Origin: Halostagnicola kamekurae
GTDB taxonomy: Archaea > Halobacteriota > Halobacteria > Halobacteriales > Natrialbaceae
Length of the DNA: 64,000 nucleotides
Direction of reading: 5' to 3'
Assembly (NCBI RefSeq): GCF_900116205.1
Contig: NZ_FOZS01000002.1
Span: 62,001-126,000 of the forward strand
Numbering within the stretch: the stretch's first letter is position 1; each line of letters begins with the position of its first letter. The notes below the pieces were generated by a model. The model searched no databases and had not been told where the DNA came from. It saw only the letters and a program-made list of their open reading frames with translations. Positions 23,086 to 62,777 of the stretch are shown piece by piece. The position numbers and the translations under genes were made by a program.

Positions 23086-23358
23086 CTATTCCGTCTTCAC
23101 GAACTTCGCTGTGCCGTCCTGATTGACGGTGATTCGATACGTTCTGTAACTGAATTCGATTATCATCTGTGCTTCGGGCGCGGGCGGATCGGAAAAGAGG
23201 TTTTTGAGAACGCCGTCGATACAGTTGTACATCGGTGGCAGTTCGCTTTGATCGATTCCCTCGAGACTGGCGACGATTTCTACGATCTGTACGGTCGGCG
23301 TCTCGCCGTCCGTGTCCAGCTCTCGACGAATGACTTCGGCATCAGTTTGATCTGCCAT
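23086..23358 (-). CDS. HalOD1 output-domain protein
   Basis: A 90-residue protein that consists of one HalOD1 domain, a haloarchaeal output domain found alone or behind receiver domains and thought to act in signalling. Characteristic features are the N-terminal VxIVEIVASLEGID region, the LPPMYNCIDGVLKNLF helix and a final beta hairpin (MIIEFSYRTYRITVNQDG). ATG 23358 is preferred over GTG 23382. It lies near the left end of element A. The partner sensor is not obvious here. Confidence 0.83.
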   Translation of the reverse strand: MADQTDAEVIRRELDTDGETPTVQIVEIVASLEGIDQSELPPMYNCIDGVLKNLFSDPPAPEAQMIIEFSYRTYRITVNQDGTAKFVKTE

Positions 23359-23486
23359 CGTGGCACTTGCTAATGTGAACACCCACTATAGGTCTTGGTC
23401 TATATAAATTGAATATTAAAACTTCTATCTATTTATATGGAATCAATTAACGGTCTTGTACTGTCGATGAAAGCGTTATTTCACGC

Positions 23487-23970
23487 GTAACAGTAGATAA
23501 TAGCACGTTTTCTTTATCCAGTACTATTCCTGAAACTGAATCGGGTAATTCAGTAACTACGGATACGAACTGAGCGTTACTGATAGACTTCTCGAGGAAA
23601 ACATATAGTGATACAGGTAGAATTGATAACGAGATGGCACTCAATCACCTCCAACACCGCCGCCCGCTAGCAACGTCCAGTGTGGTCTATTTTGGTTCTG
23701 TACTCATAATTGGTCTCCCCGTCACGTTTTTTGTTTACGAGTTTTTTGCAGGGATACTCCGTCTCCTCCAACTCAATTGGCTTGTTACCTCTGCTGCAGG
23801 AATCACAGTCCTTGCCGCAGCGTTTGTAGTCGGTATGTGGGTCGCTGGCCACGTCGCCGAGCGGGTCGTCAATAGATTCTCTTAAACAGCCCGATAGTAC
23901 GTCCCTCTCCTGTACCACTGGATTTCACGACGAGCTCTGGATAAAGAAACCGTATTACCAACTACTGGAC
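23487..23970. mobile_element. Element A: 484-bp segment bounded by imperfect inverted repeats, with one small membrane-protein gene
   Basis: The left end (23487-23521) reads GTAACAGTAGATAATAGCAC... and ends in TCTTTATCCAG. The right end (23935-23970), read on the minus strand, is GTCCAGTAGTTGGTAATACGG...TTTATCCAGAG. The two ends match each other in an inverted sense. More strikingly, the left end matches the left end of the 61,816-62,777 element for about 85 bases, and the right end matches its right end for about 65 bases. Between them is one small gene (23634-23885) and no transposase. A non-autonomous mobile element is the simplest reading, but no clear target duplication was found. Confidence 0.5.
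23634..23885 (+). CDS. Small two-helix membrane protein inside element A
   Basis: An 83-residue protein with two hydrophobic segments (about 15-37 and 47-72) and a basic N-terminus (HLQHRRPLA). No family is recognised. The AT-rich box ACATATAGTG sits 25-34 bases upstream of the ATG, so it has its own promoter. It is flanked by the two inverted ends of element A and codon use is less GC-rich than its neighbours, both suggesting acquired DNA. A role in the host or in the element is unknown. Confidence 0.6.
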   Translation: MALNHLQHRRPLATSSVVYFGSVLIIGLPVTFFVYEFFAGILRLLQLNWLVTSAAGITVLAAAFVVGMWVAGHVAERVVNRFS

Positions 23971-24108
23971 GTGCGTTTTTCGCTGACTCGTCCATTCGGC
24001 TTGTCTGCTCTCGATTCCAAAAACGCTGTTACCACCGTTTTCAGGCCTGCCCTCGCCCCTTCTGTAAAACGGCCGCTCGTTCGCTTCGCTCACTCGCAGT
24101 CGGAGTTC

Positions 24109-26010
24109 TTACGACGGAACGACGGTGATCGGATCTTTCTGGTCGATCGCCTGCTCAAGTTCATCCGCAATGGCACTCCCTCGAGACACCTGTATTTCGC
24201 CGCCGCGGCTCACCGTCGCCGTGAACAGGTACTCGCCGTTTGCCTGCACTTCGACGGTCTCGCTCTGGTGGCCGTCGACGGGGACGACGATGTGCCTCGA
24301 GGTAATCTCGGGCTGGACGATCTGCCCGGCGGACTGGCCGCCATCTGCCCCGCCGCTTGCGTCTGCGGGGCCGCTTCCGCCAGCATGTCGGGTTCCGCCG
24401 CCTCCGCCCGCCCCGGCGTGGGGGTTCTCGTCGTGGGTCCGAACGTCGATGTCGATGCCGAGCCGGTTCTCGACGTCGTTGATCCGACCGCCGCCCTTCC
24501 CGATGACGCTCGAGATGTCGTCGTCGGTGACGTAGACGACCGCCCGGTCCTGGCCCTTGAGCTGGACGTCGACGTAGCCGTGGGCGATCGAGCGAATCTC
24601 CCGTTCGATCTCCTGTTTGGCGATGCGGTCGACGCCGGATTCCGAACCGGGCCCGCCCTCGTCGTCGTCGAGCGGGACGGTGACGACCTGTCGGTTGAAC
24701 GTGTAGATCTCGTACTCAGGAACGCCGGTTTCGAACTCCGTGACCTGAATCACCGGCCGGGCGAGGTCCTCCTCGGTGAGCCCCGCGGGGACCTTGACCT
24801 CCGTCCGGACGTCGTAGACCTTTGCGACTTCCCCGGCCTCGATGTAGACGACGGTGTCGACGACCTGCGGGATCATCCCGAGTTCGACCCGACCGATGAG
24901 CCGCTGGAGGGCGTCGATCGGCCGCGTGGCGTGGACGACGCCGAGCATGCCGACGCCCGCGAGTCGCATGTCCGCGAAGACCTCGAAGTCGTTGGTCTTT
25001 CGCACCTCGTCGTAGATGGTGTAGTCGGGTCGGACCATCAACAGGGCGTCCGCGGTCTTTTCCATCTCGCCGCCGAGTTCGGTGTACTGGGTGATCTCGG
25101 GACCGACCTGCAGGTCCCGGGGCTTTTCCATCGTCTTCACCGAGTAATCGTTCTCGGAGATGTACCGCGCCACCGCCTGCGCGAACGTCGACTTGCCCGC
25201 CCCCGGCGCGCCGGAGATCAGGACCCCGCGCTGGTGCTCGAGCAGTCGATCTTTCAACTCGTCGGCGTGCTCGTAGTCCTCGATGTCGGTCTGGGCGATC
25301 GGTCGAACGGCGGTGATCTCGATGCCGTCCGAGAAGGGCGGTCGAGCGATGGCGATCCGGAAGTCCCGGAACTGGACGATCTGCATGCCCGGCTCTTTCA
25401 GTTCGATAAAGCCGTCGCTCGACTCCTTGGCCCCGTCGACGACCTCGCGGGCGTACTCGTCCATCGTCGCCTCATCGAGCGGCTCGTCGGCGATCTCCTC
25501 GTAGCGCATCTCGCCGAGCGCGCCGCGTTTGGCCATCGGTACCGTGTCCGTCTTGAGGTGGACGCTCATCGTCTCCTCGTCGAAGTAGTCCTCGACGGTG
25601 AGGGTGCCCACTTCCCGAGTCTCGGGCGAGACGTACTCGACCTCGAGGCCTTTCGCTCGCGCGACCTCAGCCTGGACGATGTCGCTCGTGATGAAGGTGG
25701 CCTCGAGTTCCTCGGCCAGATCTCGGATCAGGGCGTCGATCTCGCCCTCGGAGGCGTGGCCGCGTTCGATGGCGTTGGGCCGTTCACCGACGTACTCCAC
25801 GTCGACGACGCCGTCGTCGGCGAGATCGGCCAGCCGCTTGAGTTCCGAGAGGCCGTCCCAGCCGCTATCGTAGCCGTCGTTGGCCTGCGCCTCGAGTTCC
25901 GCGACGACGGGTTCCGGTATCGAAACCGTCGCTCCCTCGAACTGCCCGTCTTCGATCGTCTTCGAGACGCGGCCGTCGATGACCACGCTCGTGTCCGGCA
26001 CGACGTTCAT
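24109..26010 (-). CDS. PINc/VapC-type ATPase with PilT-like and KH domains
   Basis: A 633-residue conserved archaeal ATPase. The N-terminal PIN nuclease domain (1-125) keeps acidic residues typical of the metal site (Asp6, Glu39, Asp110). A PilT/VirB11-like ATPase follows with P-loop GAPGAGKST at 267-275, Walker B-like DYTIYDEVR and a His box (GVVHATR). Near 490-515 there is a KH domain (SVIGKGGGRINDVENRLG). A Gly/Ala-rich linker (about 525-560) precedes a C-terminal extension. Function is unknown; RNA processing or assembly of a membrane machine has been suggested for the family. Stand-alone gene. Confidence 0.92.
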   Translation of the reverse strand: MNVVPDTSVVIDGRVSKTIEDGQFEGATVSIPEPVVAELEAQANDGYDSGWDGLSELKRLADLADDGVVDVEYVGERPNAIERGHASEGEIDALIRDLAEELEATFITSDIVQAEVARAKGLEVEYVSPETREVGTLTVEDYFDEETMSVHLKTDTVPMAKRGALGEMRYEEIADEPLDEATMDEYAREVVDGAKESSDGFIELKEPGMQIVQFRDFRIAIARPPFSDGIEITAVRPIAQTDIEDYEHADELKDRLLEHQRGVLISGAPGAGKSTFAQAVARYISENDYSVKTMEKPRDLQVGPEITQYTELGGEMEKTADALLMVRPDYTIYDEVRKTNDFEVFADMRLAGVGMLGVVHATRPIDALQRLIGRVELGMIPQVVDTVVYIEAGEVAKVYDVRTEVKVPAGLTEEDLARPVIQVTEFETGVPEYEIYTFNRQVVTVPLDDDEGGPGSESGVDRIAKQEIEREIRSIAHGYVDVQLKGQDRAVVYVTDDDISSVIGKGGGRINDVENRLGIDIDVRTHDENPHAGAGGGGGTRHAGGSGPADASGGADGGQSAGQIVQPEITSRHIVVPVDGHQSETVEVQANGEYLFTATVSRGGEIQVSRGSAIADELEQAIDQKDPITVVPS

Positions 26011-61815: not shown

Positions 61816-62777
61816 GTTAACAGTAGATAGTAGTACGATTTCTTTATTCAGTTCGAACCTGAAACGGGCGATCGGTGGCTACGTATGCAAATCTCCCGCG
61901 GTAACAGCGCACAGCACTATATCGTGGGACGGATATATTTAGAGGAGGAAAACCGTCTATTGGTTGGCCAATAGAAAGGCAGTGACTCTGCCGTGGGCGG
62001 TCGCCAGCAAATTCGAACCGTGGAAACCGACCAATAGAACTGCGAGTCCGACCAGTGAAGCAACCACTGCCTCCGGCAAGGTGTTGATGACGATGGGACC
62101 AGCTCCCGAGTCGAATAGAGGAATCTCATACTGTGTGAACGGTAGAGGGTACACGAGTGGTGCCACGATCAGCGCCATCCCGAGGCTCGCTACTACGACC
62201 ACAAACAGGAACGTGCCGATGCCGACGAACAGGGAGACCAGGAAGTATCCGACCAGTAGATACGACTGTGGATCGGTCAATATCGTCTTTATGTACGAAA
62301 CAAGCGGCTCCGTGGTCGGATCATGGACCAAGGTGTGACCAACCTCTATCCCGAGTAGTCGGCTGATAACCTTGGCTTCGAATGTGCTGGCGTAGTCGGT
62401 CAGACCGAGCACGAAACCGAGTACTGGGATACCAACGAGTACTGGCGTCAGTGCGACACCGATAGCGAGTCCGGTCAGAAAGACGGTGAAGTACCCGACA
62501 CCAAGCGGGAGACGCAATAGGAGGAAGGCGACGTTACGGTACGTCTGTGGGTCGGTAACTGGGGACCAAAGCCGTTTATGGCCCGAATCCGGTGTGAATT
62601 CAGTCGAGTGGGAGGGCATCTTTAGGTGGATTCTGGTTGGCACACAGTATATTTCTATCGACATTTTAAGACCGCTCGCCGGCAACGAGACCACTATACT
62701 GACTACGCGCTCTGTACTTACCATGGGTTTCACGGAGAACTCTGAATAAAAAAACCGTGCTACCAACTACTGTTAAC
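61816..62777. mobile_element. Element B: 962-bp segment with the same end sequences as element A, carrying a sensor-domain gene
   Basis: Left end (61816-61851) reads GTTAACAGTAGATAGTAGTACG... and ends in TCTTTATTCAG; right end (62739-62777) on the minus strand reads GTTAACAGTAGTTGGTAGCACGG...TTTATTCAGAG. The outermost 11 bases (GTTAACAGTAG) are identical at both ends, in inverted orientation. The ends match those of element A (left with left, right with right). The single gene inside (61957-62619) is unlike that in element A and points the other way. No transposase is present. A family of non-autonomous elements with exchangeable cargo is one explanation. Confidence 0.52.
61957..62619 (-). 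CDS. Sensor-domain membrane protein in element B
   Basis: A 220-residue polytopic membrane protein resembling the Pfam putative sensor domain: YRNVAFLLLRLPLGVGYFTVFLTGLAIG, an amphipathic loop (DYASTFEAKVISRLLGIEVG) and a second pair of helices (SYLLVGYFLVSLFVGIGTFLF), then a final helix near VIVNTLPEAVVASLVGLAVLL. In bacteria the domain sits in front of histidine kinases; here it stands alone with no output domain. ATG 62619 is chosen (AAATATACTG box about 30 bases upstream); the frame extends upstream into the end repeat. It lies between the two ends of element B. Confidence 0.65.
   Translation of the reverse strand: MPSHSTEFTPDSGHKRLWSPVTDPQTYRNVAFLLLRLPLGVGYFTVFLTGLAIGVALTPVLVGIPVLGFVLGLTDYASTFEAKVISRLLGIEVGHTLVHDPTTEPLVSYIKTILTDPQSYLLVGYFLVSLFVGIGTFLFVVVVASLGMALIVAPLVYPLPFTQYEIPLFDSGAGPIVINTLPEAVVASLVGLAVLLVGFHGSNLLATAHGRVTAFLLANQ

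Follow-up and report, generated by a model that had tools for sequence, protein, structure and literature searches.

Haloarchaea are known for very high gene exchange. Among described systems, the mobile insertion cassette MIC231 of Bacillus cereus is built on the ends of IS231, whose target duplication measures 10–12 bp (PMC2266710), while in Halobacterium the miniature inverted-repeat element (MITE) ISH2 is mobilized in trans by ISH8 (PMC10264941), and ISH3 elements typically generate direct repeats of 5 bp (PMC2266710). HRAMP loci, CRISPR derivatives of haloarchaea that lack an array, are described, in the available passages of two reports, as associated with nucleases (PMC8730458, PMC12669027). 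Here, we analysed a stretch of 64,000 nucleotides from Halostagnicola kamekurae (‘the window’; contig NZ_FOZS01000002.1, positions 62,001 to 126,000) that holds two elements, A and B, with the same ends and different genes between them. On comparative sequence evidence, we consider it quite likely that both are non-autonomous transposable gene cassettes, moved in trans by the DDE transposase of a transposon lineage in which HRAMP-like Cas genes are usually present.

A first-pass annotation of the window had placed element A at 23487–23970 and seen in it imperfect inverted ends, a single gene for an 83-residue membrane protein and no transposase. Our comparison confirms these ends: the terminal repeat itself spans 31 bp, from CAGTAG to TTTCTTTATCCAG, with 25 of 31 positions identical between the left and right ends of A and 26 of 31 in B, and same-side ends of the two elements agree at 27 of 31 positions both on the left and on the right. 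Aligning A with copies that bear a target site duplication (TSD) puts the true limits slightly inside those first given, at 23491–23967 (Table 1). Column information from 40 TSD-verified copies extends the conservation approximately 70 bp inward on each side, close to the roughly 85 (left) and 65 (right) bases over which A had been said to match B. The cargo protein has two predicted hydrophobic segments, in keeping with the membrane protein originally described, and no match in a Pfam scan. Its homologues (51–77% identity) occur in five other genera; one of 70% identity, in genome G106 (L329), is again enclosed by family ends and the others are without them, so that this type of gene is both cassette-borne and free-standing. 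Next to A lie a 98-aa open reading frame (ORF; 23086–23382) and a PIN/KH ATPase-like gene (24109–26010), an order kept in the sister species G018.

Table 1 Coordinates of elements A and B in the window, other two-ended copies in the H. kamekurae genome and intact larger transposons.
Feature	Position	Length	Strand	Duplication or flanks	Basis or content
Element A, whole cassette	23491..23967	477 bp	.		family end motif; limits from alignment with TSD-bearing copies
A, presumed left target copy	23487..23490		.	GTAA	right flank 23968-23971 is GACG
A, left terminal inverted repeat CAGTAGATAATAGCACGTTTTCTTTATCCAG	23491..23521		+		family motif, end alignment
A, left subterminal conserved stretch with TGAAACTGAATCGG motif	23522..23560		+		column information, 40 TSD-verified copies
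A, cargo gene	23634..23885		+		83-aa protein, two predicted membrane segments, no known family
A, right subterminal conserved stretch, family motif GTGAAACTC read end-inward	23898..23936		-		column information
A, right terminal inverted repeat	23937..23967		-		family motif, end alignment
Element B, second cassette	61821..62772	952 bp	.		different cargo
B, left copy of target duplication	61817..61820		.	TTAA	right copy 62773-62776
B, left terminal inverted repeat	61821..61851		+
B, cargo gene	61957..62619		-		220-aa multi-span membrane protein, Pfam PF13796 Sensor (E 8e-31)
B, right terminal inverted repeat	62742..62772		-
Copy C	C3:99114-99482			TTAT
Copy D	C3:390385-390862			CTAT
Copy E	C4:107183-108081			TTAA
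Copy F	C1:929982-931091			ATAA/GTAA
Copy G	C1:526785-527358
Copy J	C8:33195-35481			CTAC
L263		6341 bp		ATAA	transposase and cas7-X-cas5
L264		6469 bp		GTAA	transposase and cas7-X-cas5
L265 (Natrinema pellirubrum pNATPE01)		6569 bp		ATAC	transposase and cas7-X-cas5
L268		7274 bp		TTAT	transposase and cas7-X-cas5
L270		5757 bp		ATAT	transposase and cas7-X-cas5
L272		7292 bp		GTAA	transposase and cas7-X-cas5

Further copies, which the mobile reading had led the first-pass annotation to expect, are present in the same genome and in its relatives. With up to 3 mismatches, the 31-bp end motif matches the 4.1-Mb genome at 15 places, against 0 for the reversed control, in line with the earlier judgement that the likeness of the ends is not chance. 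We count approximately ten copies, eight of them two-ended (A, B, C, D, E, F, G and J); H and I are further right ends, the left end of I being degenerate and that of H sought and not found. Exact 4-bp NTAN duplications flank five of the eight (B, C, D, E and J), which overturns the previous report that target duplications are lacking. The flanks of F are mismatched, and those of A, GTAA and GACG, indicate that its duplication has decayed or been lost. The cargo is different in all eight copies and includes small membrane proteins, a Sensor-domain protein, an HTH membrane protein and a cupin, among others.

Across 125 genomes of the host family Natrialbaceae, the right-end 32-mer (up to 3 mismatches) was found in 64, representing 16 of 29 genera, and the left-end motif in 76, while the reversed-control motif was absent from every one. 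An exact end scan of 84,980 species additionally recovered copies in Halorussus, Salinibaculum, Halostella, Halegenticoccus, Halohasta and Haloglomus. Starting from 100 right-end loci, we delimited 65 two-ended elements of 173–3939 bp; 41 carry an exact 4-bp target duplication, which is NTAN in 40 and GTTT in one. Registers of 2, 3 and 5–8 bp matched in 0–3 cases and eight shifted controls in 0, and a relaxed left-end search brought more matched duplications (for example, CTAG, GTAT, TTAA and TTAT). Outside the duplication there is a weak symmetrical preference for C two bases before (21 of 41) and G two bases after (17 of 41). Empty sites, proposed earlier as a check on mobility, were sought with joined-flank queries against four sister species, and precise ones were recovered for copies E and F. 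The E site is uninterrupted in G019, with 93% identity over 466 bp and a single target TTTA instead of TTAA; the F site is empty in G018, and G019 also contains the left flank of F and its left end. At the A locus, both neighbours are present in G018 without element ends; the spacer there has diverged and holds a duplication, so we do not treat it as an exact empty site.

Several members of the family are unusual in size or arrangement. Those at L158, L164, L157, L105, L071 and L144 are uniformly 280–302 bp long, have no clear gene and are MITE-like. Two 480-bp cassettes in G018 (L072 and L073; C1:896065 and 918348) lie about 22 kb apart with an identical cargo ORF and the same flank bases, and probably represent a segmental duplication. 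On a contig of Natronococcus pandeyae (L214, 5900–10900), several cassettes are adjacent and apparently nested in each other.

The suggestion that the contents are exchangeable is borne out by dozens of unrelated cargos between the same ends, each cassette usually holding one or a few unrelated host-type genes. We surveyed the longest ORFs of 61 elements and of seven from the H. kamekurae genome; among these 68, one or more hydrophobic segments are present in 31, and about seven begin with a lipobox-like sequence. Pfam-type matches among the scanned members comprise Response_reg, Usp, maltose-type acetyltransferase, Asp/Glu racemase, PAP2, EamA, F420 oxidoreductase with HTH_10, AsnC, MOSC, a Cys/Met PLP enzyme, cupin and Sensor. 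Closely related cargo recurs in different species and at different sites, as with a lipoprotein that is 96.5% identical between L160 and L163 (duplications TTAA and CTAA, respectively) and a PLP enzyme that is 92% identical between L078 and L123. Neither A nor B nor any other intact small copy was seen to encode its own transposase; the transposases met inside cassette copies read as nested insertion sequences, and a search for an autonomous copy inside Natrialbaceae cassettes of up to 4 kb found none. The family would constitute a concrete vehicle for moving single ordinary genes between haloarchaeal genera, among them genes for regulators, stress proteins, transporters, enzymes and small membrane proteins, and many orphan genes become interpretable as cassette cargo.

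A transposase with similar ends, also anticipated by the first-pass annotation, exists in larger elements. On a plasmid of Haloglomus halophilum, a 1970-bp element with a TTAC duplication (L239) contains the C-terminal half of a transposase, flanked by ends that agree with the right-end consensus of the cassettes at 29–30 of 31 positions. Its relatives are transposases of approximately 618 aa with a Pfam DDE_Tnp_1 domain (PF01609, E 2.7e-9), and a search of solved structures (Protein Data Bank, PDB) with the transposase gave no credible match. Invariant alignment columns offer D335, D414 and E528 (numbering of alignment A4) as a guess at its catalytic residues. Six intact larger elements (Table 1) have the DDE transposase at one end and a divergent cas7-X-cas5 operon at the other; in L265 and L312, a MarR-type regulator and an RHH/ParE-like toxin–antitoxin pair lie between the two. 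Exact duplications also flank two elements of about 10–11 kb (L266 and L269), a decayed 6008-bp copy on Halobacterium NRC-1 pNRC200 (L313, TTAC) and Cas genes without a complete transposase at L367, L368, L372, L374, L377, L378 and L315. On Halobacterium sp. GSL-19 pGSL19_284, an element of 4917 bp with a TTAT duplication (L314, 13438–18354) has a transposase without Cas genes; two unknown proteins and a metallophosphoesterase stand where others carry them. Exact 4-bp NTAN duplications flank 18 distinct larger elements, L239 included; L262 and L380 have no exact duplication. An Rfam search of the autonomous elements returned no match.

The Cas-like proteins of these transposons give weak but consistent matches to PADLOC models of type III RAMP proteins: 11 of 11 Cas5-like proteins match Cmr3 models (best 9e-8) and several Cas7-like proteins match Csm3 models (best 7e-7). 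A type IV (csf) identity for the operon was considered and dropped, as the matches are to type III RAMP models. Protein X has no match in Pfam, PADLOC, NCBIfam or PDB, and its structure model (pLDDT 42) is too poor to carry weight. PDB searches returned nothing for the Cas7-like protein and a weak Csm4 match alone (E 0.14) for the Cas5-like one, and in a Foldseek search with a poor Cas7-like model (pLDDT 55) CRISPR effector subunits lead the hits, none passing E 0.001. No CRISPR-like array was seen among the direct repeats of L265, L263 and L272; L263 has one loose 22-nt repeat in 3 copies. The operon fits the published description of HRAMP, and from the passages of PMC8730458 and PMC12669027 that describe it we infer that identity. 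Of 392 genomes in the order, 90 have a Cas7-like homologue. Within the closer clade, 16 of 18 loci with fetched surroundings (in the range L367–L384) have a transposon end at most about 200 bp from the cas5 stop, while the two loci of a distant clade have none; when these 20 loci were scanned in 200-bp windows, only 27 of 2620 reached as high a score, a figure that counts the true ends. This suggests that the closer HRAMP-like clade as a whole is transposon-borne, and linking one HRAMP-like Cas5/Cas7 clade to a transposon whose ends and target duplication are known makes its role testable.

As a default, we regard the Cas-like genes as cargo or a defence module, because the insertion targets are dispersed NTAN sites (with the weak C/G preference two bases outside), an element shares no excess identity with its own target flank (mean 10.3 nt for own pairs and 10.0 nt for other pairs) and L314, which lacks Cas genes, has a clean duplication. 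That Cas7-X-Cas5 is instead a working part of transposition, serving target choice, self-insertion immunity or transposase control, seems to us unlikely. Were it so, this would be an array-less, CRISPR-derived transposon system with a DDE_Tnp_1-type transposase and no relation to Tn7 or Mu, and its ends would in addition distribute single-gene cassettes among haloarchaea.

The case for the ~618-aa transposase as the helper lies in the ends and the target duplication, from which mobilization of the cassettes in trans appears probable. On its transposase side, L263 has an end that agrees with the two cassette end consensuses at 29 and 28 of 31 positions, L262/L263-type elements have transposase-side ends close to those of the cassettes, and the Cas-side end of several larger elements matches the cassette right end at 29 of 31. 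This end identity and the identical 4-bp NTAN rule make the cassettes readable as derivatives in which the interior was replaced and both ends were kept. A different, unseen transposase, for example from a relative on a Natrialbaceae plasmid, might instead serve the cassettes, the HRAMP-carrying transposons being mere cousins with similar ends. In its favour, most cassettes belong to a family in which the ~618-aa transposase is rare, with five good matches in 125 genomes, and the intact Natrialbaceae elements L265 and L268 have transposase-side ends that are only 23 of 31 like the cassette end. We nevertheless judge such a helper improbable, given the close ends of the L262/L263 type, the NTAN duplication that L263 has in common with the cassettes, the half transposase enclosed by cassette-like ends in L239 and the finding that intact copies contain no other transposase, nested insertion sequences apart. 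ISH3 transposases were also considered as helpers and rejected: among 30 fetched loci, none has family ends beside it, and the ISH3 copy within one cassette locus has its own terminal inverted repeat. In H. kamekurae itself, no transposase of the ~618-aa group was found at E 1e-10 with ten of 13 candidates scored, which agrees with the earlier description of A as non-autonomous. Since most cassette-bearing genomes likewise have no recognizable member of the group, a helper would have to be transient, carried on plasmids or so diverged that it escapes recognition.

Two further readings bear on the ends themselves. With constant ends and one variable gene per unit, the cassettes look somewhat like those of integrons, and the adjacent copies in N. 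pandeyae add to this impression; the ends might then be site-specific recombination sites at which an integrase exchanges cassettes. The 4-bp duplications at separate NTAN sites, the dispersed single insertions and the precise empty sites are, however, what DDE transposition leaves behind, unlike cassette recombination at one attI site, and we hold integrase exchange to be highly improbable. The other reading is that the ends are ordinary promoter and terminator sequences, alike by coincidence, a prospect that the first-pass annotation had raised for promoters. The ends are AT-rich and adjoin genes, as this would have it, but they form asymmetric inverted pairs of 31 bp at the exact limits of the elements and reversed controls give 0; the exact 4-bp duplications and the empty sites exclude coincidence for practical purposes.

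Returning to transposition in trans, we propose that in a cassette two unlike ends of about 70 bp, each a 31-bp terminal inverted repeat followed by a subterminal GAAACT-type motif, enclose a cargo that is usually a single host-type gene together with the region upstream of it. Both ends would be recognized by a DDE transposase acting in trans, which would excise the cassette and join it to a target at NTAN, leaving the 4-bp duplication; the likeliest supplier would be the ~618-aa enzyme of haloarchaeal transposons of about 6–7 kb with common ends and target rule, which usually carry cas7-X-cas5. We infer both this cut-and-paste chemistry and the route of cargo capture, in which host DNA probably replaced the transposon interior. 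The resulting cassettes would now circulate among genera and spread single accessory genes.

Compared with known systems, the cassettes resemble MIC231 in their IS-type ends, passenger genes, lack of a transposase and presumed mobilization in trans. They have inverted ends in common with an autonomous element (28–29 of 31) and passenger genes without a transposase, and at the level of the family they have target duplications and empty sites, A’s own duplication not being intact; in these sequence-testable features, they are MIC-like (PMC2266710, PMC6542083). Unlike MIC231, they are archaeal, have ends of an ISH3-like lineage and a 4-bp NTAN duplication, and carry many unrelated cargos, and their probable helper transposon bears Cas-like genes. 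ISH2 is likewise a haloarchaeal transposase-less element served in trans, but by another transposase family, with a 10-bp duplication (ISH2/ISH8A unit, PMC10264941) and no gene cargo. The probable helper transposase is distantly related to ISH3 in its catalytic part, whereas it has ~618 aa against ~390 in ISH3; we do not place it in that family because its NF033541 (ISH3) score (E 4.4e-38, 131 bits) falls below the 225-bit cut-off and its duplication, in 18 larger elements, is 4-bp NTAN rather than 5 bp. Like HRAMP as portrayed in passages of PMC8730458 and PMC12669027, the operon combines a Cas5-like, a Cas7-like and one conserved unknown protein with no CRISPR array; here, by contrast, it sits inside a transposon with defined ends and a target duplication, a context that those passages do not mention. 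By uniting Cas effector genes with a transposase, the larger elements recall the Tn7-like and Mu-like CRISPR-associated transposons (CASTs), from which they differ by a single DDE_Tnp_1-type transposase and short NTAN targets; no CRISPR array was seen in them, and insertion showed no sign of being guided. No TnsC- or TniQ-like gene was recognized among the scanned ORFs of the Cas-bearing transposons, and since their transposase belongs to PF01609 and TnsB/TnsC/TniQ-type machinery was not detected, we do not class them as CASTs. Overall, A, B and their kin are best described as MIC-like cassettes that probably receive their transposase in trans from a transposon lineage in which HRAMP-like genes are the usual companions.
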